The notes beneath the pieces were generated by a model. It was not told the origin of the DNA, ran no database searches, and saw only the letters and a list, made by a program, of their open reading frames with translations. From Candidatus Dadabacteria bacterium (GTDB lineage Bacteria > Desulfobacterota_D > UBA1144 > Nemesobacterales > JADFKM01), in contig JADFKM010000061.1 in the NCBI GenBank assembly GCA_022564935.1, positions 1 through 11,215 of the forward strand: a stretch of DNA of 11,215 nucleotides. The letters are read 5' to 3'. Each line of letters begins with the position of its first letter. Position 1 is the first letter of the stretch. A program made the translations under genes and the position numbers. This document shows positions 1 to 11,215 of the stretch, one piece after another.

Positions 1-337
1 GCACGTATTTCTTTATGCCGCCGGACTGTTTAGCCATATCCACCACGGTCTTCGTTCCCTTGAAATGTACGCTCTGGAAAGTTTGAGTTCCCCTCTCCTT
101 TATAATGCCCACGAGGTGTATCAGGTAGGGGAGTTTTTCGAAGAACGCCGGGTCGATGGAGGACTGCTCTGTTATGTCGCCCTTAAAAACGGCTACGCCA
201 CGCGCCCTCAGCCACCCTGCCGCCTCAGGGCTCCTCGCTATGCACCTTACCGCGTACCCTCTGGAAAGAAGCTCTTTAACTACATGCCCCCCGACAAACC
301 CTGTAGCGCCTGTAAGCCCTACGGTCTTTCCGCTCAT
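1..337 (-). CDS. NAD(P)-binding SDR/NmrA-like epimerase-dehydratase family protein (3' part missing)
   Basis: Only the first 112 codons are inside the window; the gene continues past the left edge. The protein opens with MSGKTVGLTGATGFVGGHVV, a beta strand followed by the glycine-rich GATGFVG loop (residues 10-16), the dinucleotide-binding signature of extended or atypical short-chain dehydrogenases. A basic residue at the end of strand 2 (RCIAR, 31-35) is compatible with NADP. The VGII segment (76-79) and the later HFKGTKTVVDMA segment (91-102) resemble the complex-I NDUFA9-like/NmrA-like subgroup. The catalytic YxxxK region lies outside the window, so the reaction cannot be told. The start ATG is 42 bp after the biotin carrier gene on the same strand, so it may be the last operon gene. 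However, there is no Shine-Dalgarno, and a TAAAAT box (346-351) sits 8 nt before the ATG, so it may have its own promoter. Confidence 0.85.
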   Translation of the reverse strand, partial: MSGKTVGLTGATGFVGGHVVKELLSRGYAVRCIARSPEAAGWLRARGVAVFKGDITEQSSIDPAFFEKLPYLIHLVGIIKERGTQTFQSVHFKGTKTVVDMAKQSGGIKKYV

Positions 338-379
338 AGTCTTTTATTTTATCACACAAATGGTGGGAATGTTCACCCG

Positions 380-880
380 CTATTCCTCGGAAGAAATAAC
401 CAGCAGCACCGTGCCGCTTTCTACGGCGTTTCCGGGCTCCACGTTGACCTCCTTCACCTTGCCCGCTATGGGTGACTTCAGCTCGCTCTCCATCTTCATG
501 GCTTCGACCACTATCACACTCTCGCCCTCTTTTACCGCCTCTCCCAGCCCTTTGAGTACCTTTACCACACTGCTCGGCATAGGGGACTTGATTTCCTGGA
601 TGCCCTCTGCTGCGCCTGCCGCCGCCGTCTTGATATCTCTGCTTGAGGTCGCCTCGAACTCGTAAAGCTCGCCGTTGAGGTACACCTCGATCGTTTTTCC
701 CCTCTTGAGGATCCCCACGGCGAAGGAGCGGTCTTCGATAATGAGCGAATACAGGTTGTCGTCTACCCGCTTGAACTCAACCGGGAACTTCTTGTCGTCG
801 ATCTCGATTTCACTCAACTGCCCCTCTTCTTCAAGGTGCACCTTGAAGATTTCGTTTTGAAGCTTGAATGTGTATATCAT
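380..880 (-). CDS. Biotin carboxyl carrier protein subunit of acyl-CoA carboxylase
   Basis: This small 166-aa subunit carries the biotin that shuttles carboxyl groups from the biotin carboxylase to the carboxyltransferase. The C-terminal biotinyl domain (about 97-166) has the lipoyl/biotinyl fold signature. The biotin attachment motif is EAMKM (126-130), with Lys129 the modified residue, followed by a SPIAG turn (137-140) and a G-DxV-like segment. The N-terminal 75 residues (MIYTFKLQNEIFKV onward) are beta-rich and look like the BT (carboxylase-carrier tether) barrel of PCC-type alpha subunits. A longer frame begins at 928 but would overlap accC by 52 bp. The ATG at 880 gives the classical ATGA overlap with the accC stop, implying translational coupling, and starts exactly at the BT-like strand, so I prefer it. 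A short Ala-rich linker (86-92) joins the two domains. The biotin ligase that would load it is not in this window. Confidence 0.93.
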   Translation of the reverse strand: MIYTFKLQNEIFKVHLEEEGQLSEIEIDDKKFPVEFKRVDDNLYSLIIEDRSFAVGILKRGKTIEVYLNGELYEFEATSSRDIKTAAAGAAEGIQEIKSPMPSSVVKVLKGLGEAVKEGESVIVVEAMKMESELKSPIAGKVKEVNVEPGNAVESGTVLLVISSEE

Positions 881-2373
881 AGCGCCTGGGACCTGGAAAC
901 GGCCAATCTCCTGGCAAATGATTTCCAATTGGATCGTGTTTGCGCGGCCGGCTCCTCCACTTCTCGCGTGGCGTTGCGCATCCCTAGGGCCGCCGCCGCA
1001 AGGGCGGGCTCAAGGTCGGCAAGCTGCGCTTTGAGCAGCTCCGGGTGCCGCTCGATGTAGCCGGTGTCGATTTCGGCGCGTCCGAACTCTGCCTCTTTAA
1101 AAAGTCGGGTCAAGAACCCGATGTTTGTTTTTACCCCCAGCACGATGTACTCGTCCAGGGCGGCTCTCATCTTATCTATTGCTTCGGTCCTGTCCCCTGC
1201 CCACACTATAAGCTTCGATATCATCGGATCGTAGTGCGGGGTCACCTCGAACCCGCTGTACACCGATGAGTCGTTCCTGATGCCCGGGCCGCTCGGGGCT
1301 CGTATGTACTCCACCCTGCCGGGGGCGGGCATGAAGTTCTGCTCGGGCACCTCGGCGTAAATCCTGCACTCGATCGAGTGTCCGTTCATTTTTATGTCGC
1401 TCTGCTTGAAGGGCAGCTTCTGGCCGGCGGCAGTGCGTATCATCCACTTCACTATGTCGAGCCCGGTTACCATCTCCGTCACGGGGTGTTCGACCTGGAC
1501 TCTGGTGTTCATCTCCAGGAAGTAGAAGTTCTCCTTCTGGTCCATGATGAACTCCACAGTGCCGGCGCCTCGGTATTTGACCGCCTTGGCCAGCCTCAGG
1601 GCCATCTCTCCCATCTGCTTCCTCGTTTTCGCGCTGATAAAGCCCGAGGGGGCCTCTTCGATCACCTTCTGGTGCCTGCGCTGTATCGAGCATTCGCGCT
1701 CGAACAGGTGGAGCACCTTGCCGTGGGAGTCCCCTATTACCTGGATCTCGATGTGGCGGGGCCTCTCGATGTATTTTTCGATGTACACCGAATCGTCCCC
1801 GAAGGCGCCGTGGGCTTCGCTGCGCGCCATGCCGAGGGCGGCCGAGAACTCCTTGGCTTTCCTGACCAGCCTCATTCCCTTGCCCCCGCCTCCGGCCGAG
1901 GCCTTGATCATGACGGGGTAGCCGATCTTTTTCGCCGCGCCCCCGGCCTCGACGTCCGTTACGGCGCCGTCGGTGCCGGGCACCAGCGGGACTTTGGCCT
2001 TAAGGGCTATCTTCCTCGCCGTTATCTTGTCTCCCATCAGGCGTATGGACTGGGCCGTGGGGCCGATGAACACGATGCCTTCGCTCTCGCACATGCCGGC
2101 GAATGCGGCGTTTTCGGAGAGGAACCCGTACCCCGGGTGTATGGCCTCGGCCCTGGAGCGCTTGGCGGCATCTATTATCTTTTCCATCACCAGGTAGCTC
2201 TCGCCGGGTGCAGGGGGGCCTATGTGGAATGCCTCGTCCGCCATCGAGACGTGGAGCGAGCTGCGGTCGGCATCGGAGTAAACGGCTACGGTCGAGACGC
2301 GCAGCTCCTTGCAGGCCCTTATAATCCTTACGGCGATTTCCCCTCTGTTGGCAACGAGAATCTTTTCGAACAT
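877..2373 (-). CDS. accC: Biotin carboxylase subunit of acyl-CoA (propionyl/acetyl-CoA) carboxylase
   Basis: It catalyses ATP- and bicarbonate-dependent carboxylation of the biotin on the carrier protein encoded just downstream. The 498 aa show the full family order. The N-terminal domain opens MFEKILVANRGEIAVRI and contains HPGYGFLSEN (79-88). The ATP-grasp domain has the glycine-rich lid GGGGKGM (161-167), the ERECSIQRRHQK segment (225-236) and the catalytic EMNTRVQVEHPVTE stretch (287-300). The C-terminal domain has ECRIYAE (335-341). Typical AccC proteins end near residue 450. Here about 50 extra residues follow, Ala-rich and then SNWKSFARRL (481-490), which resembles the linker leading into the BT domain of fused PccA proteins. 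The gene thus looks like a PccA-type alpha chain split before the BT domain. A GAAGG Shine-Dalgarno (2382-2386) overlaps the pccB stop and sits 8 nt before the ATG; the gap to pccB is 12 bp, so it is clearly in the same operon. The precise substrate is set by the partner, so pccA would be an equally valid name. Confidence 0.96.
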   Translation of the reverse strand: MFEKILVANRGEIAVRIIRACKELRVSTVAVYSDADRSSLHVSMADEAFHIGPPAPGESYLVMEKIIDAAKRSRAEAIHPGYGFLSENAAFAGMCESEGIVFIGPTAQSIRLMGDKITARKIALKAKVPLVPGTDGAVTDVEAGGAAKKIGYPVMIKASAGGGGKGMRLVRKAKEFSAALGMARSEAHGAFGDDSVYIEKYIERPRHIEIQVIGDSHGKVLHLFERECSIQRRHQKVIEEAPSGFISAKTRKQMGEMALRLAKAVKYRGAGTVEFIMDQKENFYFLEMNTRVQVEHPVTEMVTGLDIVKWMIRTAAGQKLPFKQSDIKMNGHSIECRIYAEVPEQNFMPAPGRVEYIRAPSGPGIRNDSSVYSGFEVTPHYDPMISKLIVWAGDRTEAIDKMRAALDEYIVLGVKTNIGFLTRLFKEAEFGRAEIDTGYIERHPELLKAQLADLEPALAAAALGMRNATREVEEPAAQTRSNWKSFARRLAVSRSQAL

Positions 2374-2385
2374 CGGGATTACCTT

Positions 2386-3930
<1,545 letters not shown>

Positions 3931-4005
3931 TTTCTTACTCCTTGCCCTAGGGAAACACGAATCAATTTACTATCACGGGTCGCTATTGGCAAGAGGGGTG
4001 TCTTA

Positions 4006-4037
4006 GGTATGGAACAAAGGTGTATTAAATGCATACC
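4006..4037 (-). promoter_or_regulatory. Inverted repeat in the carboxylase operon leader
   Basis: GGTATG (4006-4011) and CATACC (4032-4037) form a perfect 6-bp inverted repeat with a 20-nt spacer. It lies just downstream of the predicted start site and inside the untranslated leader. It could be a stem-loop in the RNA or an operator. No known riboswitch class is recognisable. Six pairs can arise by chance, so this is only a candidate. Confidence 0.25.
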
Positions 4038-4054
4038 CAAAAAAAAGCGGTTGA

Positions 4055-4083
4055 ACTATACCCGACAATAGTGTCTTTATCAA
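4055..4083 (-). promoter_or_regulatory. Sigma70-type promoter of the carboxylase operon
   Basis: Read on the minus strand, TTGATA (4083-4078, 5 of 6 to consensus) and TATAGT (4060-4055, 5 of 6) are separated by exactly 17 bp. Transcription would begin near 4048, giving a leader of about 117 nt before the pccB ATG. The -10 lies in an 11-mer, CGGGTATAGTT, that recurs at the hbd promoter. Confidence 0.65.
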
Positions 4084-4085
4084 AG

Positions 4086-4109
4086 GAGGCGAGCCGCCTC
4101 GTATGGCGG
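4086..4109. terminator. Overlapping hairpins downstream of coaE (weak terminator candidate)
   Basis: GAGGCG-AGC-CGCCTC (4086-4100) is a perfect 6-bp stem with a 3-nt loop. It overlaps a second possible stem, CCGCC (4094-4098) with GGCGG (4105-4109); the two exclude each other. They lie 30 nt past the coaE stop. No U-run follows on the minus strand, so intrinsic termination is uncertain and coaE may read through into the carboxylase operon. Confidence 0.3.
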
Positions 4110-4129
4110 TATTTGCCTGTAATTGAGCC

Positions 4130-4726
4130 TCATCCGCTGAGCTCCTCCCAAAGCTCCTGCACCTGCCGTGCTGTGTCCTGGAGGGAGCCTGAGTTGTCAA
4201 TGACGTAGGTTGCGCGGGCGGCCTTTTCCTCTCCGCTCATCTGAGCACGCAGACGTAAAAGGGCCTCTTCTCGGCTGAGTCTCCTATCAATCATCACTCT
4301 GTTAATCTGGCTCTCCTCGTCCGCCGTGACCACAATGAGGGCGCTTATGAGTCCGCCCATCCCGCCCTTCTCAGCTATTAGCGCGGCCTCGATCAATAGG
4401 ACCTCAGTGCCTTCGGCCCTGTGGCGCTCGACCATGTTTGTTATTTCTTCGATTATCCTTGGGTGGGTTATGCTGTTTAACCGCTCCCTTTTCTCGGGGT
4501 CGGCAAATACGATCTCTGCCAGCTTCTTCCTGTTGAGTGTGGAGTCGCAGTTGAGGACTTCCTCGCCGAACTCCTCGATTATGTCCTCCCATGCGGGCAG
4601 CCTTGGGGCCACGACGGCCCTAGCGACCTGGTCGGCGTCGATGACGCTTGCCCCGAGCACACCGAACATCCTTGCCACCGTGCTCTTACCCGCGCCTAAG
4701 CTTCCCGTGAGTCCGATCACTTTCAT
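4130..4726 (-). CDS. coaE: Dephospho-CoA kinase
   Basis: It performs the last step of coenzyme A synthesis, ATP-dependent phosphorylation of dephospho-CoA at the ribose 3' hydroxyl, in the cytosol. The 198 aa match the family length of about 200. The start has the Walker A loop GSLGAGKST (8-16), followed by the DAD motif (30-32) for substrate and metal binding. LNRKKLAEIVF (64-74), the THPR motif (87-90) and the lid region RRLSREEALLRLRAQ (148-162) are all conserved. The usual PLLFE strand is replaced by IEAALIAE (112-119), a modest variant. No Shine-Dalgarno precedes the ATG. A TATCAT box (4735-4740) sits 8 nt upstream, which would make the transcript nearly leaderless. The gene is divergent from hbd and lies upstream of the carboxylase operon on the same strand, a setting rich in CoA-thioester enzymes. 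Confidence 0.95.
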   Translation of the reverse strand: MKVIGLTGSLGAGKSTVARMFGVLGASVIDADQVARAVVAPRLPAWEDIIEEFGEEVLNCDSTLNRKKLAEIVFADPEKRERLNSITHPRIIEEITNMVERHRAEGTEVLLIEAALIAEKGGMGGLISALIVVTADEESQINRVMIDRRLSREEALLRLRAQMSGEEKAARATYVIDNSGSLQDTARQVQELWEELSG

Positions 4727-4777
4727 CTGGCTGGATGATAGTTTAATGGGGGGGGAGTCCTTTTCAACGAGGCATCG

Positions 4778-4800
4778 ACCCGCCCTCGGATTTAGCGGGT
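4778..4800 (+). promoter_or_regulatory. Inverted-repeat operator candidate at the hbd promoter
   Basis: ACCCGC (4778-4783) and GCGGGT (4795-4800) form a perfect 6-bp inverted repeat with 11 bp between, 23 bp overall. The right arm runs into the first base of the hbd -10 box, so a bound protein would block RNA polymerase. No regulator gene is in the window to pair it with. Confidence 0.35.
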
Positions 4801-4805
4801 ATAGT
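4800..4805 (+). promoter_or_regulatory. Putative -10 box of the hbd promoter
   Basis: TATAGT (5 of 6 to consensus) lies 35 nt before the hbd ATG and sits in the same 11-mer, CGGGTATAGTT (4796-4806), as the carboxylase promoter. The -35 is poor: the best match, TCGACC at 4775-4780, is 19 bp away. The promoter may therefore depend on an activator or another sigma factor. Confidence 0.4.
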
Positions 4806-4840
4806 TATCTCCCCCATTTATATCAAGTAAGGAGAGTGAG

Positions 4841-5704
4841 ATGGCTTTGAAACCCAAAGACGTAAAGAAGGTTGCGGTGATAGGCGCGGGCACTATGGGC
4901 TCCGGCATCGCTCAGGTGGTGGCTGCTGCGGGCAGGGACGTAGTACTGCTCGACATAGCTGTGGAGGCTGCGGAGAAGGGTAAGGGCGCGATCGAGAAGG
5001 GCCTTGGAAGGCTTGTTAATAAGAAGAAGATGACGGCGAAGGAGAGCAAGGCGATACTGTCCCGCATAAAGACCACCGAGGACTACGGTGACATCACTGA
5101 CTGCGACCTCGTGATAGAGGCCGTGTTCGAGGACATTGACATTAAGCTTGAGACATTCGGCATCATTGACAACGCCGTAGGCACTGATGTGGTGGTAGCC
5201 ACGAACACCTCTTCGCTTCCCATAATCGAGCTTGCGGTCAATACAACAAGGCCTGAGAAGATCGTGGGGATGCACTTTTTTAACCCCGCTCCGGTGATGA
5301 AGCTCGTTGAGATAATCAAGACACTCGCCACCTCGGACGAGACGGCTCGGTTCGCCTTCGATTTCGCCAAGGCGCTCGGCAAGGAGCCGGTCATGACCGT
5401 AGACCGGCCCGGCTTCATCGTGAACAGGATACTCGTACCCATGCTCAACGAGGCCGTGTTCGCCCTCGAAGAGGGTGTAGGCGCTCCTGAAGACATCGAC
5501 AACGCCATGAAGCTCGGCGCGGGCCACCCCATGGGGCCGCTCGCGCTCATCGACTTGATCGGCCTCGACGTGACGCTCGAAGTACTGGACGTGCTTTACG
5601 ACGAGTTCGGCGACCCGAAGTTCCGCCCCGCCCCGCTCCTGCGGCAGATGGTTCGCGCAGGACGGCTCGGCAGGAAATCCGGCAGAGGGTTCTTTGAGTA
5701 TTGA
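4841..5704 (+). CDS. hbd: 3-hydroxybutyryl-CoA (3-hydroxyacyl-CoA) dehydrogenase
   Basis: It oxidises 3-hydroxyacyl-CoA to 3-ketoacyl-CoA with NAD(P), or the reverse, as in beta-oxidation and butyrate-type metabolism. The 287 aa match the usual single-function enzyme of about 285. A Rossmann domain opens with VAVIGAGTMGSGIAQ (11-25), and an acidic Asp38 at the end of strand 2 favours NAD. NTSSLPI (122-128) supplies the Ser that contacts substrate, and the catalytic His-Glu pair is His145 in GMHFFNPAPVMKLVE (143-157) and Glu157. The C-terminal dimer domain starts with PGFIVNRIL (190-198), including Asn195, and ends in the family-typical GRKSGRGFFEY. AAGGAG (4829-4834) 6 nt before the ATG confirms the start. 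No thiolase, crotonase or acyl-CoA dehydrogenase lies next to it here, so the exact chain length is open. It is transcribed away from coaE. Confidence 0.95.
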   Translation: MALKPKDVKKVAVIGAGTMGSGIAQVVAAAGRDVVLLDIAVEAAEKGKGAIEKGLGRLVNKKKMTAKESKAILSRIKTTEDYGDITDCDLVIEAVFEDIDIKLETFGIIDNAVGTDVVVATNTSSLPIIELAVNTTRPEKIVGMHFFNPAPVMKLVEIIKTLATSDETARFAFDFAKALGKEPVMTVDRPGFIVNRILVPMLNEAVFALEEGVGAPEDIDNAMKLGAGHPMGPLALIDLIGLDVTLEVLDVLYDEFGDPKFRPAPLLRQMVRAGRLGRKSGRGFFEY

Positions 5705-5730: not shown

Positions 5731-7587
5731 GTGGGGAACTTGAGGAAATTTTTTATCATAGCAAAAAAGCCTGTAACCTGGTTTAAGTATCAGGTCAAGT
5801 ATTTCTATAATTTAGTCTCCAAAAAGGTGCGAAGCGTTCAGTCTTTGCTATGGATGAGAAGTCAGAATTTTACACAAAGATTTCTAACTTGGTTGAGGGG
5901 TAATATATGGAATAAGAGAAAGGATATATTATCTTGGATTAAACTTTGGGGATGGTATAAGGGTTGGTTCATCCTTCTCATAATATCACTTGCCGCTGTA
6001 GGAATATTTATATGGCCAGGGATAGAAATACCAGAAGTTATAGATGCTAACGGAAATGAACGAACTCAGACCCTTTATCTGCTAAGTGCAATTTCTCAGT
6101 CCCTAGCTGCTGTTCTTGCTCTAGTCTTTACTATTTCGCTTATTGTTGCTCAACTCTCCTCACGATATTCCCATTACATGCTTGCAAGTTTTTTTAGTGC
6201 CCCAATAATACTTTATATTTTATTATTTATTGTTGCCATATCACTGCCATTTATTTTACTTACCAAACCCAATGCAAACGCTATAAAGATTTCCCTAATT
6301 TTAACTGCGACCTGTTTACTTTTACTTGTCCCATATTTCCTCAGCTTCAAAGAAAAACTTAACCCTATTTCACTAATCAATTCTTTTAAAATTGAAGCCC
6401 AAAAAAAGGTTCTTAAAAATCCAAATGATTTGCCGAGAGAAGCTATTATAATTGATAATTTTATTATTAGTGCATTTAATCAAATGGATTATGAAACCAT
6501 TGATTACGGAATAAGTTCCCTGGGTAATATTGTTATGGATACACCATTTAGCGAAAGGGAATATGGAGGAACGAACGACCAACCTTCATATGCAATTGCG
6601 TCAATAATTGATAGGCTTGCAAACAATGGATTGATAACCATACAAGATCCAAAGGTTCCTTATTGGGTGATAGATACTCTCTTTAGGATTGGAAAACATT
6701 CAATAGCTCTAAAATCCGAAGTGTTAGCTGGCAACATCTGTAGACATATAGAAAGTATTGGAATTAAAGCTGCTTATTATGGTATCCAAGAGATTTTAAT
6801 GCATTCCTCACAAGGGGGTATCAGAACCGCTCTTTTCTCTATAGGTCGTGAGGCCGTGGATGAGGGAATGTCGAATCTCGCAATTAGTTCTGGTGATTCT
6901 TTACGTGATGTAAGCATTAAATGCATCCAGATGGGTCATGAAGATACTGCAAGAGCTTTTGCCTCAAGTCTAAGTTTCATAGGGGAAAAAGCTGTCGAAA
7001 AAAGATTGGTTTCCTATACGTCTTTTGCAATTTTTCTTGGGACGATTGGTTATGAGGCTGTCAAGTATGATCTTGAAGAAGCTTCAGGGTGGGTTGCTAC
7101 TTTTCTTGGTAATTTGGGGGCCGAGGGTGCAGAAATCGGAGTTGAAGAATTATCAAAAGATACAGCAAATTCCCTAAGGAATATGGGTATAAACGCAACT
7201 GAAAAGGGTCTTGAAAAAGTGTTAGAGTCAGTTACAAAAAACTTAGAATTCTTAGGCATTAGGTCGATAGAAAATAATATAAATAATACACCACAATTTA
7301 TTTCTAGTGCCTTAACCGATATCTGTATCAAAGCTGCGAGAAAAGAAGGACTGGGTATGATATACCAAAGAACGGTTAAGTTTATAATTGAATTAGGTGC
7401 TTATGCAACATTGAAAAATAATACCAAACTTAAAGAAGTTATAGCTAATGAACTACGCCGTCTAAGAAGTACTGAAATGTGCTACGTCCCAAGTAACGCA
7501 TTTGATGAAGTGCGCTCGTGTTTTTCAGATCGCCTAGATCTACAAAGTGCGGTTATTGAGTTTCAAGACTTCTATCAGAAAAGTTAA
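5731..7587 (+). CDS. Orphan membrane protein (DUF2254-like N-terminal half) with a 23-residue-repeat C-terminal half
   Basis: I do not recognise a characterised function. The 618-aa protein starts with a basic, aromatic-rich 75-residue stretch. Four likely membrane segments follow, at about 79-97, 116-140, 152-178 and 184-206. The second and third (around LAAVLALVFTISLIVAQLSS) resemble the DUF2254 membrane family; this is from memory of that family, not a search. From about 320 to 577 the soluble part is a run of some eleven repeats, mostly 23 residues, with Gly at position 2, a small residue at position 5 and an aliphatic residue third from the end, suggesting an all-alpha solenoid. No catalytic motif is visible. 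The GTG at 5731 is the first possible start, because a stop lies at 5722-5724; no clear Shine-Dalgarno precedes it, and a TTG at 5740 or ATG at 5854 are alternatives. AT-rich codon use unlike its neighbours and its isolated position point to transfer. A receptor, scaffold or stress/defence role is possible but unsupported. Confidence 0.8.
   Translation: MGNLRKFFIIAKKPVTWFKYQVKYFYNLVSKKVRSVQSLLWMRSQNFTQRFLTWLRGNIWNKRKDILSWIKLWGWYKGWFILLIISLAAVGIFIWPGIEIPEVIDANGNERTQTLYLLSAISQSLAAVLALVFTISLIVAQLSSRYSHYMLASFFSAPIILYILLFIVAISLPFILLTKPNANAIKISLILTATCLLLLVPYFLSFKEKLNPISLINSFKIEAQKKVLKNPNDLPREAIIIDNFIISAFNQMDYETIDYGISSLGNIVMDTPFSEREYGGTNDQPSYAIASIIDRLANNGLITIQDPKVPYWVIDTLFRIGKHSIALKSEVLAGNICRHIESIGIKAAYYGIQEILMHSSQGGIRTALFSIGREAVDEGMSNLAISSGDSLRDVSIKCIQMGHEDTARAFASSLSFIGEKAVEKRLVSYTSFAIFLGTIGYEAVKYDLEEASGWVATFLGNLGAEGAEIGVEELSKDTANSLRNMGINATEKGLEKVLESVTKNLEFLGIRSIENNINNTPQFISSALTDICIKAARKEGLGMIYQRTVKFIIELGAYATLKNNTKLKEVIANELRRLRSTEMCYVPSNAFDEVRSCFSDRLDLQSAVIEFQDFYQKS
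6688..7461 (+). repeat. Eleven tandem coding repeats of about 23 residues
   Basis: Repeat units start at residues 320, 343, 371, 394, 417, 439, 462, 485, 508, 531 and 555 of the 618-aa protein. Lengths are 23 (eight units), 22, 24 and 28. Position 2 is Gly in 9 of 11, position 5 is Ala, Ser, Cys or Gly in all 11, and the residue third from the end is Leu or Ile in all 11. Clear examples begin IGYEAV, LGAEGA, MGINAT and LGIRSI. DNA identity between units is low, so the array is old and not a recent tandem duplication. Confidence 0.7.
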
Positions 7588-7704: not shown

Positions 7705-9096
7705 TCATGTACACTCCGCTCTTGCGCGTTTGAGCCGCTCGATTACCACGTCTTTGCCCAGCATTTCCATCACCTCGAAGATGCCGGGGCTTACGGTGCC
7801 TCCCGTGAGCGCCACGCGAGTGGGCTGGGCGACCTGGCCGAGCTTTAGCTCCATGCTCTCGGCTATCTCGTTGTAAAGGCCGTGGAGCGTTTCCTGGTCG
7901 AAGCTATCAAGGGCCGAGAGCCTTTTGATTAGCGTCTCGAATAATGTGGTGTTTTCGGGGACGAGGAACTTCTTGCGCGCTTTTTCCTCGTAGGTGATTT
8001 CGTCTTTGTAGAAGTAGTCCATCGAGTCTGTGATGTCGAGGAGTGTCTTTGCGCGCTCCCTTACCATATCCACGATGGCTACGAACCTTTCGTCAAACTC
8101 TGCGGGGAGTCCCTTTTCCTGTATCGTCGGCAGCACAGTTGCGGCGATATCACGCGCTGGCTTGTTGCGGATATACCAGCCGTTGAGCCACAGCAGCTTA
8201 TCGGGGTTGAAGACGGCTGCGGACTTGCCGACGCTATCGAGAGTGAACTTCTCTATCAGCTCCTCGGTCGAGAATATCTCCTGGTCTCCGTGAGACCACC
8301 CCAGGCGCGCCAGGTAGTTGATGAGCGCTTCGGGGAGGTAGCCCATATCCCTGTAGGCGGTGACGGAGATTGCGCCGTGACGCTTGCTGAGCTTCGTCCT
8401 GTCCGGCCCCATTATCATGGAGACGTGGGCGAATATCGGCGGTGTGCGGCCCAGCGCCTGGTAGATGAGCGCCTGCTTAGGGGTGTTTGAGAGGTGGTCG
8501 TCCCCGCGGATGATGTGGGTTATTTCCATATCGGAGTCGTCCACGGCCACTGCGAAGTTGTAGGTGGGGAAGCCGTCGGTCTTCATGATAATGAAGTCGT
8601 CGATTTCTTTGGCTTTGAATAAGACAGGGCCGCGGATGGCGTCCTCGACGTCGATCGTTCCGGTATCGGGTGTCTGGAGCCTTATGGCGTAGGGCTTTTT
8701 CTCGGAGGCCCCCTGCTGTGCCCACTCGCGCCTGTACCTGAACACCTCGCCGCGGGCTTTCGCCTCCTCCCTTTTGGCGGTAAGCTCTTCGGCGCTGACG
8801 TAGCATTTGTACGCTTTTCCTTCATCCAGCAATCTTTCGGCAAAGCCCTTGTAGAGATTCAACCGCTCGGATTGCTTTACTGGCTCGCCGTCCCAGTTAA
8901 GCCCAAGCCACTGCATGGACTCAAGAATCTCGAGAAGCGACTCCTTTGTGGAGCGTGCCCGGTCGGTGTCCTCTATCCGCAGGACGAAGCTGCCCTTATG
9001 GTGGCGGGCGAAAAGCCAGTTGAAAATTGCGGTTCTCACCCCGCCTATGTGGAGCGCCCCGGTCGGACTGGGGGCGAATCTGGTCTTTACGGTCAT
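7705..9096 (-). CDS. gltX: Glutamyl-tRNA synthetase
   Basis: It charges tRNA-Glu with glutamate using ATP in the cytosol. The 463 aa match bacterial GluRS (about 465-490). The class I signature is complete: FAPSPTGALHIGG (7-19) carries the HIGH-type motif, and TKLSKRHG (234-241) carries the KMSKS-type motif. Between them lie RIEDTDRARS (40-49) for glutamate binding, the FPTYNFAVAVDD acceptor-stem region (176-187) and HIIRGDDHLSNTPKQ (194-208). The C-terminal anticodon-binding domain ends with TRVALTGGTVSPGIFEVMEMLG (426-447), typical of the family. The Cys cluster of zinc-binding GluRS is absent; only Cys98 is present in that area. Whether it is discriminating or also charges tRNA-Gln cannot be decided from sequence alone, and no gatCAB genes are in view. 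The start lacks a clear Shine-Dalgarno, but the N-terminus aligns with the family. It lies 88 bp after the glutaredoxin gene on the same strand and may be cotranscribed with it. Confidence 0.97.
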   Translation of the reverse strand: MTVKTRFAPSPTGALHIGGVRTAIFNWLFARHHKGSFVLRIEDTDRARSTKESLLEILESMQWLGLNWDGEPVKQSERLNLYKGFAERLLDEGKAYKCYVSAEELTAKREEAKARGEVFRYRREWAQQGASEKKPYAIRLQTPDTGTIDVEDAIRGPVLFKAKEIDDFIIMKTDGFPTYNFAVAVDDSDMEITHIIRGDDHLSNTPKQALIYQALGRTPPIFAHVSMIMGPDRTKLSKRHGAISVTAYRDMGYLPEALINYLARLGWSHGDQEIFSTEELIEKFTLDSVGKSAAVFNPDKLLWLNGWYIRNKPARDIAATVLPTIQEKGLPAEFDERFVAIVDMVRERAKTLLDITDSMDYFYKDEITYEEKARKKFLVPENTTLFETLIKRLSALDSFDQETLHGLYNEIAESMELKLGQVAQPTRVALTGGTVSPGIFEVMEMLGKDVVIERLKRARAECT

Positions 9097-9184
9097 AGGG
9101 CTTTAAATGTTAATTTACAGTCTTTAGGTAGTCAATGGCGGGTGTGGGGCGTGAGGAATGTATGGGTTATCAGAGCGGGCTCAG

Positions 9185-9442
9185 TTAGGTTAACCCTAAT
9201 TTTTCGTCCAGTTTATTTGTCCTTACCAGGGCCTTAAGCTCCCTGTAGCCCCCGATTAATTCATCATCGATGACGATTATGGGAACAGTGCTCCATTTGT
9301 ACTCTTCCATTATTTTACTTTTTATATCAGGCTCCGAAGAGAGGTCTATCTCATCGTAATTGACCCCCTTCTGGTCTAATATGGCTTTTGCCGCCAGACA
9401 GAACGGGCAGAAAGTCGTTGTGTATAACTGAACTTTGCTCAT
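9185..9442 (-). CDS. Glutaredoxin-like thiol-disulfide oxidoreductase
   Basis: The 85-aa protein has the short glutaredoxin length and fold order. It opens MSKVQLYTTTFCPFC, placing the dithiol active site CPFC at Cys12-Cys15 after the first beta strand. TVP with the cis-proline (52-54) precedes the third strand IIVIDDE. GGY (64-66) then starts the glutathione-binding helix. CPFC rather than CPYC is common in bacterial glutaredoxin-like and NrdH-type proteins. There is no signal peptide, so it acts in the cytosol, reducing disulfides with glutathione or thioredoxin reductase as donor. A GGAG-type ribosome site (9455-9459) lies 12 nt before the ATG, somewhat far, and a good promoter precedes it. 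It is upstream of gltX on the same strand, with no obvious functional link. Confidence 0.92.
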   Translation of the reverse strand: MSKVQLYTTTFCPFCLAAKAILDQKGVNYDEIDLSSEPDIKSKIMEEYKWSTVPIIVIDDELIGGYRELKALVRTNKLDEKLGLT

Positions 9443-9489
9443 CTGGAATATGATCTCCTAAACGGTGTCTGTATTTATAAAGTATGGTT

Positions 9490-9518
9490 ATTATACAGAT
9501 GGGTTTCAAGATAAACAA
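9490..9518 (-). promoter_or_regulatory. Sigma70-type promoter of the glutaredoxin gene
   Basis: On the minus strand a perfect TATAAT (9495-9490) lies 17 bp from TTGTTT (9518-9513, 3 of 6 to consensus), inside an AT-rich patch. Transcription would begin near 9483, leaving a leader of about 40 nt to the ATG at 9442. Confidence 0.55.
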
Positions 9519-9615
9519 AATTTTTTTATGAAATAGTGCGCACTGCGTCATGCGGCGGCTCTTGAGGGGTGTGGACGGGGGCCCGCTCGATGTTTTTATC
9601 TCCGTAGAGTTTGTG

Positions 9616-9621
9616 TACAAT
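9616..9621 (+). promoter_or_regulatory. Putative -10 box for the lipoprotein-mlaE operon
   Basis: TACAAT (5 of 6) lies 96 nt before the lipoprotein ATG. The hexamer 17 bp upstream, TTTTTA (9593-9598), is a poor -35. It is the best promoter-like site in the GC-rich stretch 9536-9717, which otherwise holds no gene I can support. Confidence 0.3.
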
Positions 9622-9635
9622 AAGGGGCTCCGGGC

Positions 9636-9660
9636 GATTATTCTCGGGGCTATGATAATC
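9636..9660 (+). promoter_or_regulatory. Inverted repeat upstream of the lipoprotein gene
   Basis: GATTAT (9636-9641) and ATAATC (9655-9660) form a perfect 6-bp inverted repeat with a 13-nt spacer. CCGGGCG occurs as a direct repeat at 9630-9636 and 9660-9666, overlapping the ends. The site lies 14 bp after the putative -10, where an operator or leader hairpin would act. Confidence 0.3.
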
Positions 9661-9717
9661 CGGGCGGGTCGCGCCGGATGTGAGCGGCTCGTTAGGCCCG
9701 ACTCCTAAACAGGATCG

Positions 9718-10260
9718 ATGAAACCTCTCCATTTCTTAGTTCTTTTCGTTTCCCTGATTTCCTCCTCATGCTCTCTGGCCAGGTTTGTGAAGATCTACGC
9801 CGGCCATAGCCCTAACTCCGGGGAACTTCAGGGCAGGGTTTTCATATCGCGCGATACGGACTATGAGATAGGGGAGCTTCCTCCGGGTTGGACGAGGATA
9901 AAGGTCGAGGGCGGCGATCTGGCCTTTTACAACCAGGATATCGGAGCCACAATCACGGTGAATTCCATTTGCGGGAAGCCCCGCTACAGCTATGAGGCCA
10001 TTATGGACGCCCTTTTCATCGGCATAAAGGATAAGGAGGAAGTGTCGAGGGATGAGCCTCTCATTGATGGCGAGAGGGGGCTCGGTGTAGTGGTAAAAGG
10101 GGTCATAGACGGCGTCCCTGTAGTCCTCAGGGGTGTGGTTGTAAGGAAAGGGGGCTGCGTTTATGATTTCACCTACGGGGCCATGCCACAGGGGTTTGAA
10201 GTCGGAAGAGGCGAGTACGAGGGGTTCATTAACGGGTTCAGGGTGATTAGAGCGCAATGA
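9718..10260 (+). CDS. Secreted conserved hypothetical protein, probable lipoprotein of an mla-type operon
   Basis: The 180-aa protein begins with a signal sequence: a basic start MKPLH, a hydrophobic core FLVLFVSLI (6-14) and SSSC ending at Cys18. This is a plausible but imperfect lipobox, because Ser rather than Leu/Val/Ile occupies position -3. The mature part is beta-rich, with PPGW (55-58), DLAFYNQDIGATITVNSIC (67-85) and GCVYDFTY (146-153). Cys85 and Cys147 could form a disulfide in the periplasm. No enzyme motif is seen. AGGA (9711-9714) lies only 3 nt before the ATG, a short spacing, but the signal sequence supports this start. The stop overlaps the mlaE start as ATGA, so the two are translationally coupled and the protein probably assists the lipid transporter. 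I recall similar small lipoproteins beside mlaE in Deltaproteobacteria-like genomes, unverified. Confidence 0.85.
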   Translation: MKPLHFLVLFVSLISSSCSLARFVKIYAGHSPNSGELQGRVFISRDTDYEIGELPPGWTRIKVEGGDLAFYNQDIGATITVNSICGKPRYSYEAIMDALFIGIKDKEEVSRDEPLIDGERGLGVVVKGVIDGVPVVLRGVVVRKGGCVYDFTYGAMPQGFEVGRGEYEGFINGFRVIRAQ

Positions 10261-11045
10261 GAGAACTCTTAGTCGGGCTTGGCGGCTACCTAAACGGCAA
10301 GCTCATAGTTATTGGTGAATGGGGGATTTTTGTATACTGGATTGTTCGAGCGTGCTTCAAGCGCCCCTTCGACCTGAAGCAGATCAGAGAGCAGGTCGAT
10401 GAGATCGGTTACAAATCACTTCCGATCGTAGTATTGTCTGCACTTTCGATAGGGATGGTCATGGTGCTCCAGCTCGCCTTCAGCTTCAAGCGGTTCGGCG
10501 CCCGGGGGCTAGTGGGCCCGGTGGTGGCCCTGTCTATTGTGAGGGAGCTCGGGCCCATAATTACCTCGCTCCTGGTGGGGGGAAGGGTAGGCTCGGGAAT
10601 TACGGCCGAAATAGGCTCGATGCAGGTCACCGAGCAGATAGACGCCATAAGGACACTGGGGGCCGACCCTATAAAGAAGCTGGTCGTACCGAGGTTTATC
10701 GCCGCTCTGATATCGTTTCCCTTTCTCGCCATCATAGCCGATTTTGTTGGGATTTTCGGCGGAATGATCATGGCCGAAATGGAGCTGGGGGTAACCCCGA
10801 GGCAGTTCTTAGAGGGCGTACGCGTCGAAGTCACCTTTACCGATTTCTTCAGCGGGGTATTGAAGACGGTGTTCTTCGGGCTGCTTGTGACCACGGTAGC
10901 GTCCTTTGTCGGGATGAGGGCTGCCGGCGGCACACAGGGGGTCGGGAGGGCGACCACTCTTACGGTCGTGATTTCGCTCGTTCTGATCATTATAAGCAAT
11001 TTTTTCCTTACGAAGCTCCTGCTTATGTTGTGGCCGGTGGTCTAA
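10257..11045 (+). CDS. mlaE: MlaE family phospholipid ABC transporter permease
   Basis: This is the inner-membrane permease of an Mla-type importer that moves phospholipids between inner and outer membrane to keep outer-membrane asymmetry. The 262 aa match MlaE/YrbE length (about 255-265). An amphipathic N-terminal helix region is followed by hydrophobic segments at about 55-76, 84-110, 145-172, 200-219 and 234-258. The family signature spans VRELGPIITSLLVGGRVGSG (95-114), AEIGSMQVTEQIDAIRTLG (117-135) and DP (137-138), with the EQIDA coupling motif at 126-130 that contacts the ATPase. The start is set by the ATGA overlap with the lipoprotein gene. The expected partners, the ATPase MlaF and the MCE-domain protein MlaD, are not seen in the 170 bp that remain, so they lie beyond the right edge or elsewhere. 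Confidence 0.96.
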   Translation: MRELLVGLGGYLNGKLIVIGEWGIFVYWIVRACFKRPFDLKQIREQVDEIGYKSLPIVVLSALSIGMVMVLQLAFSFKRFGARGLVGPVVALSIVRELGPIITSLLVGGRVGSGITAEIGSMQVTEQIDAIRTLGADPIKKLVVPRFIAALISFPFLAIIADFVGIFGGMIMAEMELGVTPRQFLEGVRVEVTFTDFFSGVLKTVFFGLLVTTVASFVGMRAAGGTQGVGRATTLTVVISLVLIIISNFFLTKLLLMLWPVV

Positions 11046-11215
11046 AGCGTCGTTTGGACGGACAGCCGCTTGTGACGGGTTGGGTGGTGTCGGACGCAGC
11101 TGTCATTAGTGGGATAGAAAGAAGGCTTTAAGCCCTCATGCAGAGGTTTTAAAAACTGTTCTTTATTTTTAGCGCATCGCTGTAGGTTCTGTACCTTTCG
11201 TAAGTGAGTTCTGTA
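11046..11215. other. Right-edge non-coding stretch
   Basis: No supportable gene or RNA is seen. A minus-strand frame is open from the edge to a TAG at 11044-11042 (56 sense codons), but it has no recognisable motif and an unusual composition. GTTCTGTA occurs twice, at 11186-11193 and 11208-11215, 22 bp apart, cut off by the window edge. No hairpin with a U-run follows mlaE. Confidence 0.4.

Follow-up and report, generated by a model that had tools for sequence, protein, structure and literature searches.

The gene at positions 5731-7587 of the window, that is, of the whole stretch of 11,215 nucleotides analysed here, belongs to a Candidatus Dadabacteria bacterium. Our main reading, to which we assign a probability of about 0.45, is that it encodes an inner-membrane protein with a four-segment module of the DUF2254 N-terminal type (DUF2254-N) and a cytoplasmic solenoid serving as a docking arm, and that the gene was acquired horizontally. 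The domain combination, a predicted solenoid of 23-residue repeats on a known DUF2254-N membrane module, is new.

The features of the gene and its two neighbours are listed in Table 1. In 19-residue Kyte-Doolittle windows, the four hydrophobic segments extend over residues 74-102, 114-146, 147-182 and 181-208, approximately; together with the AlphaFold2 model, segment 2 is placed at about residues 113-142 and the other three as in Table 1. The preliminary description had noted these segments and, after them, about eleven units of mostly 23 residues; hydropathy and the periodicity analysis below agree with both. The true start of the gene could be downstream of the annotated one, as most of the stretch from residue 1 to about 54 is missing from the relatives.

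Table 1. Features of the 5731-7587 gene and its neighbours (residues refer to the encoded protein)
Feature	Residues	Position in window	Strand	Evidence or remark
Whole gene		5731..7587	+	618-codon ORF, GTG start
N-terminal stretch, basic and aromatic	1-78	5731..5964 (upstream of 5965)	+	17 K/R, 1 D/E
Hydrophobic segment 1	79-97	5965..6021	+	Hydropathy; DUF2254 match begins here
Hydrophobic segment 2 with LSSRYSH end, DUF2254-type signature	113-148	6067..6174	+	Conservation, hydropathy
Hydrophobic segment 3	157-177	6199..6261	+	Hydropathy, AlphaFold2
Hydrophobic segment 4	182-208	6274..6354	+	Hydropathy, AlphaFold2
Linker helices between membrane module and repeats	209-319	6355..6687	+	AlphaFold2, profile comparison
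Predicted alpha solenoid, eleven units of ~23 residues	320-577	6688..7461	+	Lag analysis, AlphaFold2; ~1 predicted helix per unit
C-terminal tail, two predicted helices	578-618	7462..7584	+	AlphaFold2
3-hydroxyacyl-CoA dehydrogenase gene (hbd)		4841..5704	+	Left boundary of inserted stretch
Glutamyl-tRNA synthetase gene (gltX)		7705..9096	-	Right boundary of inserted stretch, convergent

Membrane module

The protein had been called an orphan, and for its membrane half this label does not hold. The window protein itself scores 16.6 bits against the Pfam family DUF2254 (PF10011), under the gathering cut-off of 28.8. Its closest relative, 43% identical, scores 42.1 bits, above the cut-off, over profile positions 11-168 of 368. 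The remainder of the profile (169-368) is matched by neither protein. In profile-profile comparisons, the family of the window protein matches other DUF2254-N proteins (alignment A5, consisting of L025, L010, L008, L009 and L013) over residues 115-269 with E 4.3e-13, and a full DUF2254 protein with E 5.8e-6. By way of these relatives, the membrane half is assigned to the N-terminal module of DUF2254, with the solenoid occupying the position of the missing C-terminal half. Within the linker, alignment to the wider DUF2254-N family extends to approximately residue 269, and no similarity to the A5 proteins was detected by profile comparison in the C-terminal region. In the passages of PMC11184937 that deal with DUF2254, it is described as a predicted membrane family, many of whose members are predicted to be knotted; no function is given there.

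The most conserved element comprises residues 113-148, where 33 of the 36 positions (92%) are identical to those of the closest relative. The corresponding values are 39% in the repeats and at most 58% in other regions. This element carries many small or polar residues (Q, S, T) within a hydrophobic segment, and a similar one recurs across DUF2254-N relatives. As the membrane module is the most conserved part of the protein, it may carry the main activity, leaving the solenoid a purely regulatory role; this counts against the docking-arm reading.

According to the positive-inside rule, a basic flank lies on the cytoplasmic side of the membrane. Given the even number of membrane segments and the strongly basic N-terminus, both termini and the solenoid would be cytoplasmic. 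The same features favour the membrane anchoring suggested earlier.

The 23-residue repeat

The repeat units start at residues 320, 343, 371, 394, 417, 439, 462, 485, 508, 531 and 555. Seven of the ten spacings equal 23 residues, the other three being 28, 22 and 24. The motif proposed in the preliminary description was recovered: Gly occupies unit position 2 in 9 of 11 units, a small residue (Ala, Ser, Cys or Gly) position 5 in all eleven, and Leu (7/11) or Ile (1/11) position 21, the third from the end. BLOSUM self-similarity of residues 310-585 at lag 23 has z 5.9, a value reached at any lag by none of 2000 shuffles; lag 16 is likewise prominent (z 4.8). The 43%-identical relative shows lag 23 with z 4.9 (0/2000 shuffles), and a 26%-identical relative (L006) has its peak at lag 47 (z 5.9), with z 4.0 at lag 23. 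No odd/even alternation was seen among the units of the window protein, and thus the repeat unit is probably one helix.

Within the repeat region, identity between the window protein and its closest relative is 53% at motif and hydrophobic core positions and 31% at the others (p 7e-4). Such a pattern would be expected for a scaffold with a changing surface.

None of the Pfam repeat families reaches its cut-off. The same is true of HEAT/ARM profiles, which gave only E 0.025-0.055, and this in the distant relative L006. The LRV profile does not match the window protein.

Predicted structure

AlphaFold2, given two sequences only, yielded a full-length model (mean pLDDT 75) and a model restricted to residues 211-618 (mean pLDDT 83). 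In the full-length model the repeat region mostly has pLDDT 86-97; in the solenoid-only model the last units have about 69-85. The C-terminal tail is confident in the former model and not in the latter. Confidence is low for the helices of the N-terminal stretch and for a loop of the linker near residues 274-282, and the membrane part, with only these two input sequences, is poorly predicted (pLDDT about 47-63).

Each unit corresponds to approximately one predicted helix of 14-21 residues and a short turn, so that residues 320-577 of the model contain periodic helices. This region is predicted to fold into an alpha/alpha solenoid similar to designed helical repeats and HEAT/ARM proteins. With the confident prediction and no Pfam repeat profile at cut-off, the earlier proposal of an alpha solenoid outside the common repeat families stands. 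The short turns imply that neighbouring helices would be antiparallel, and two units would then pair into a hairpin as large as a HEAT unit, about 46 residues. The earlier objection that the period is too short for HEAT or Armadillo is not borne out at this point, as 23 residues make one helix and two units would make a HEAT-sized hairpin, and HEAT/ARM proteins are found among the structural matches.

Designed helical repeats are the top-ranking structural matches, namely 8fin_A (Z 21.5) and 5cwl_A (DHR54, Z 20.2), with rmsd 2.6-3.4 over 165-170 residues (3.4 over 170 for 5cwl_A), followed by HEAT/ARM proteins with Z 15-20 over about 260-350 residues and rmsd mostly 7-13; Z values below approximately 13 may reflect only the common repeat arrangement, and all these matches exceed that level. 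A similar shape is by itself no evidence of common ancestry or of function. A sequence search of solved structures returned only chance-level matches (segments of rhodopsin and V-ATPase, E at least 0.025) and none for the repeats. The viral structure library returned generic solenoids only.

Distribution and genomic context

Searches that covered first 100 relatives and then 57 genomes from the phylum yielded one full-length homologue, 43-44% identical. It resides in genome G013 (locus L003, contig JACPIY010000073.1), a groundwater Deltaproteobacteria MAG. Its gene has an in-frame TGA at L002:2161-2163 (L003:8673-8675), in the linker before the repeats, reflecting either a broken gene or a sequencing error. 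The distribution within the phylum is patchy (2/57 genomes), and scans of genome contigs revealed no relative beyond the G013 one. A third, shorter member, a 444-aa frame with 26% identity, was observed in G184 from another phylum; the phyla of G184, G114 and G094 are represented by one or two genomes each. No relative of the window protein was found in plasmids, phages or viral contigs, and PHROGs and NCBIfam gave nothing useful for it.

The GC content of the gene is 36%, compared to 56% in the rest of the window. The difference at third codon positions is larger, with GC3 of 29% in the gene and 76% in both hbd and gltX. The genes coaE, hbd and gltX often form one block across the phylum, and the flanking genes in the window fit this arrangement. 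The gap between hbd and gltX is 30-161 bp in 12 of the 17 phylum genomes with both genes in reach, and 2000 bp in the window, where it is filled by the 5731-7587 gene. In the five other genomes the gap is 681-1361 bp, with differing contents. Because of the GC3 contrast and the short gap in most genomes of the phylum, the horizontal acquisition proposed in the preliminary description is well supported, the hbd-gltX spacer having received this gene as its only cargo. As the enlarged gaps differ in content, unrelated cargo genes seem to have landed in this spacer repeatedly in the lineage.

The hbd-gltX gaps in L070, L071, L079, L082 and L085 hold other inserts. The insert at L079:323-1363 encodes a homologue of pentameric (neurotransmitter-gated) ligand-gated ion channels (Neur_chan_LBD 3.6e-20, Neur_chan_memb 2.7e-12).

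No convincing repeats flank the gene, and scans of promoters and terminators performed no better than on shuffles. Positions 1-5704 and 7705-11215 of the window contain ordinary genes encoding biotin carboxylase, carboxyl transferase, CoaE, 3-hydroxyacyl-CoA dehydrogenase, GltX, glutaredoxin and MlaE permease. No neighbour gene is conserved across the family loci: the window has housekeeping genes, L003 a dynamin-like GTPase gene, and L024 other genes.

Possible functions

Alpha-solenoid folds, both designed repeats and HEAT/ARM proteins, mostly bind proteins or peptides. The docking-arm reading draws on this property of the fold class and from the higher conservation of the repeat core relative to other positions. 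Each repeat of the cytoplasmic alpha solenoid would consist of one helix, about 20 residues long, and a short turn, and the solenoid surface would keep a protein or peptide partner at the membrane. Binding of the partner would be coupled to the conserved four-segment membrane module; we infer this coupling, as well as the binding itself. Two further points weigh against this reading: no neighbour gene is conserved, and the structural model is built from two sequences, with a poorly predicted membrane part. Among the roles proposed in the preliminary description, sensor or scaffold is thus the one that we prefer. A broader interpretation is unlikely: DUF2254-N would form the pore or signalling core of membrane proteins of a class not described before, and an exchangeable cytoplasmic arm, here a single-helix 23-residue repeat outside the described families, would control it.

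The membrane module might also be an oligomeric channel lined by segment 2, with the solenoid as its gating or assembly domain. We consider such a gated pore a possible, if rather unlikely, arrangement. The small and polar residues of the 113-148 element, its exceptional conservation and its recurrence across DUF2254-N relatives would suit a pore lining; however, the conservation is likewise compatible with a plain oligomerisation or lipid-binding helix. The membrane part is predicted too poorly for comparison with known structures, and we know of no channel in DUF2254, which also counts against a pore. Another role is suggested by the neighbours of some relatives: DUF2254-N proteins with helical C-termini could act together with nucleotide cyclases, kinases or response regulators, the window protein being a stray member of this group. 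Indeed, a DUF2254-N gene lies directly behind a CHASE2 cyclase gene at L027:3148-6412 and L013:2-2835, another overlaps a response-regulator gene on the same strand at L028:6606-9186, one more precedes a Ser/Thr kinase gene in L026, and in L003 kinase and PP2C genes are found 3-6 kb upstream of the closest relative. However, the two cyclase loci come from two genera of one phylum (genomes G239 and G094 for L027 and L013, respectively), and no signalling gene adjoins the gene in the window or some other family loci. A signalling partnership of the window protein is quite unlikely.

The preliminary description also considered an anti-phage factor. The solenoid would then sense a phage component and the membrane module would damage the membrane. 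The patchy distribution and the foreign composition agree with such a role, as do two neighbours of the closest relative, a gene for a dynamin-like GTPase (L003:6191-7897) 79 bp upstream, with a PADLOC match to LeoA of 1.2e-28, and a PemK-like toxin gene (L003:9913-10227) downstream. On the other hand, PADLOC has no match to the window protein up to E 10 and none to its relatives; searches of phages, plasmids and viral contigs gave no match, and the neighbours in the window are housekeeping genes. This suggestion is not upheld, and we regard the anti-phage role as very unlikely. A link to dynamin-like GTPases was not supported either: the genome of the window gives only a short P-loop match, although this genome is only 89% complete, and the pairing is not conserved. 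Finally, the gene could be an acquired gene in decay or otherwise non-functional, or else an assembly artefact. The in-frame TGA of the relative in L003 and the fact that the window is a single 11.2-kb contig of a draft genome point in this direction. Yet the reading frame is open across 618 codons, the repeat core is conserved above other positions, as expected under selection, and the flanks fit the coaE-hbd-gltX arrangement. Decay or artefact is highly improbable.

As the window protein shows, the N-terminal membrane module of DUF2254, a family that is widespread but has no known function, can be separated from the rest and combined with various cytoplasmic domains. This separability offers a way into the function of DUF2254, since the role of the module can be sought independently of the C-terminal part. 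The predicted solenoid, in turn, is a natural example of similar single-helix repeats, for which the best structural matches are designed helical-repeat proteins.

Comparison with known systems

The window protein and DUF2254 (PF10011) have in common the N-terminal membrane module with the S-S-x-Y motif ending segment 2. The C-terminal half of DUF2254 (169-368) is absent from the window protein, which has the 23-residue solenoid in its place. The DUF2254-N proteins of A5 share with it the membrane module and the linker to about residue 269, and they too match DUF2254 over the first half only. The LRV repeat is close in length, having 24 residues, but consists of one alpha and one 3-10 helix per unit, whereas the model of the window protein has no such two-helix unit.

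Designed helical repeats (DHR54, DHF46 and others) resemble the predicted solenoid in the length of their helices, the shortness of the turns and the way the helices pack, with Z about 20 and an rmsd near 3 over 160-170 residues. They are man-made and unrelated to it in sequence, and the likeness is one of shape only. With HEAT and Armadillo proteins the predicted model shares stacked helix hairpins. Their unit comprises two or three different helices and is about 37-47 residues long; that of the window protein, which shows no odd/even alternation, is probably a single helix, and the relative L006 has its peak at 47. The arm would be a variant of this common scaffold for protein binding, set apart by its unusual evenness.
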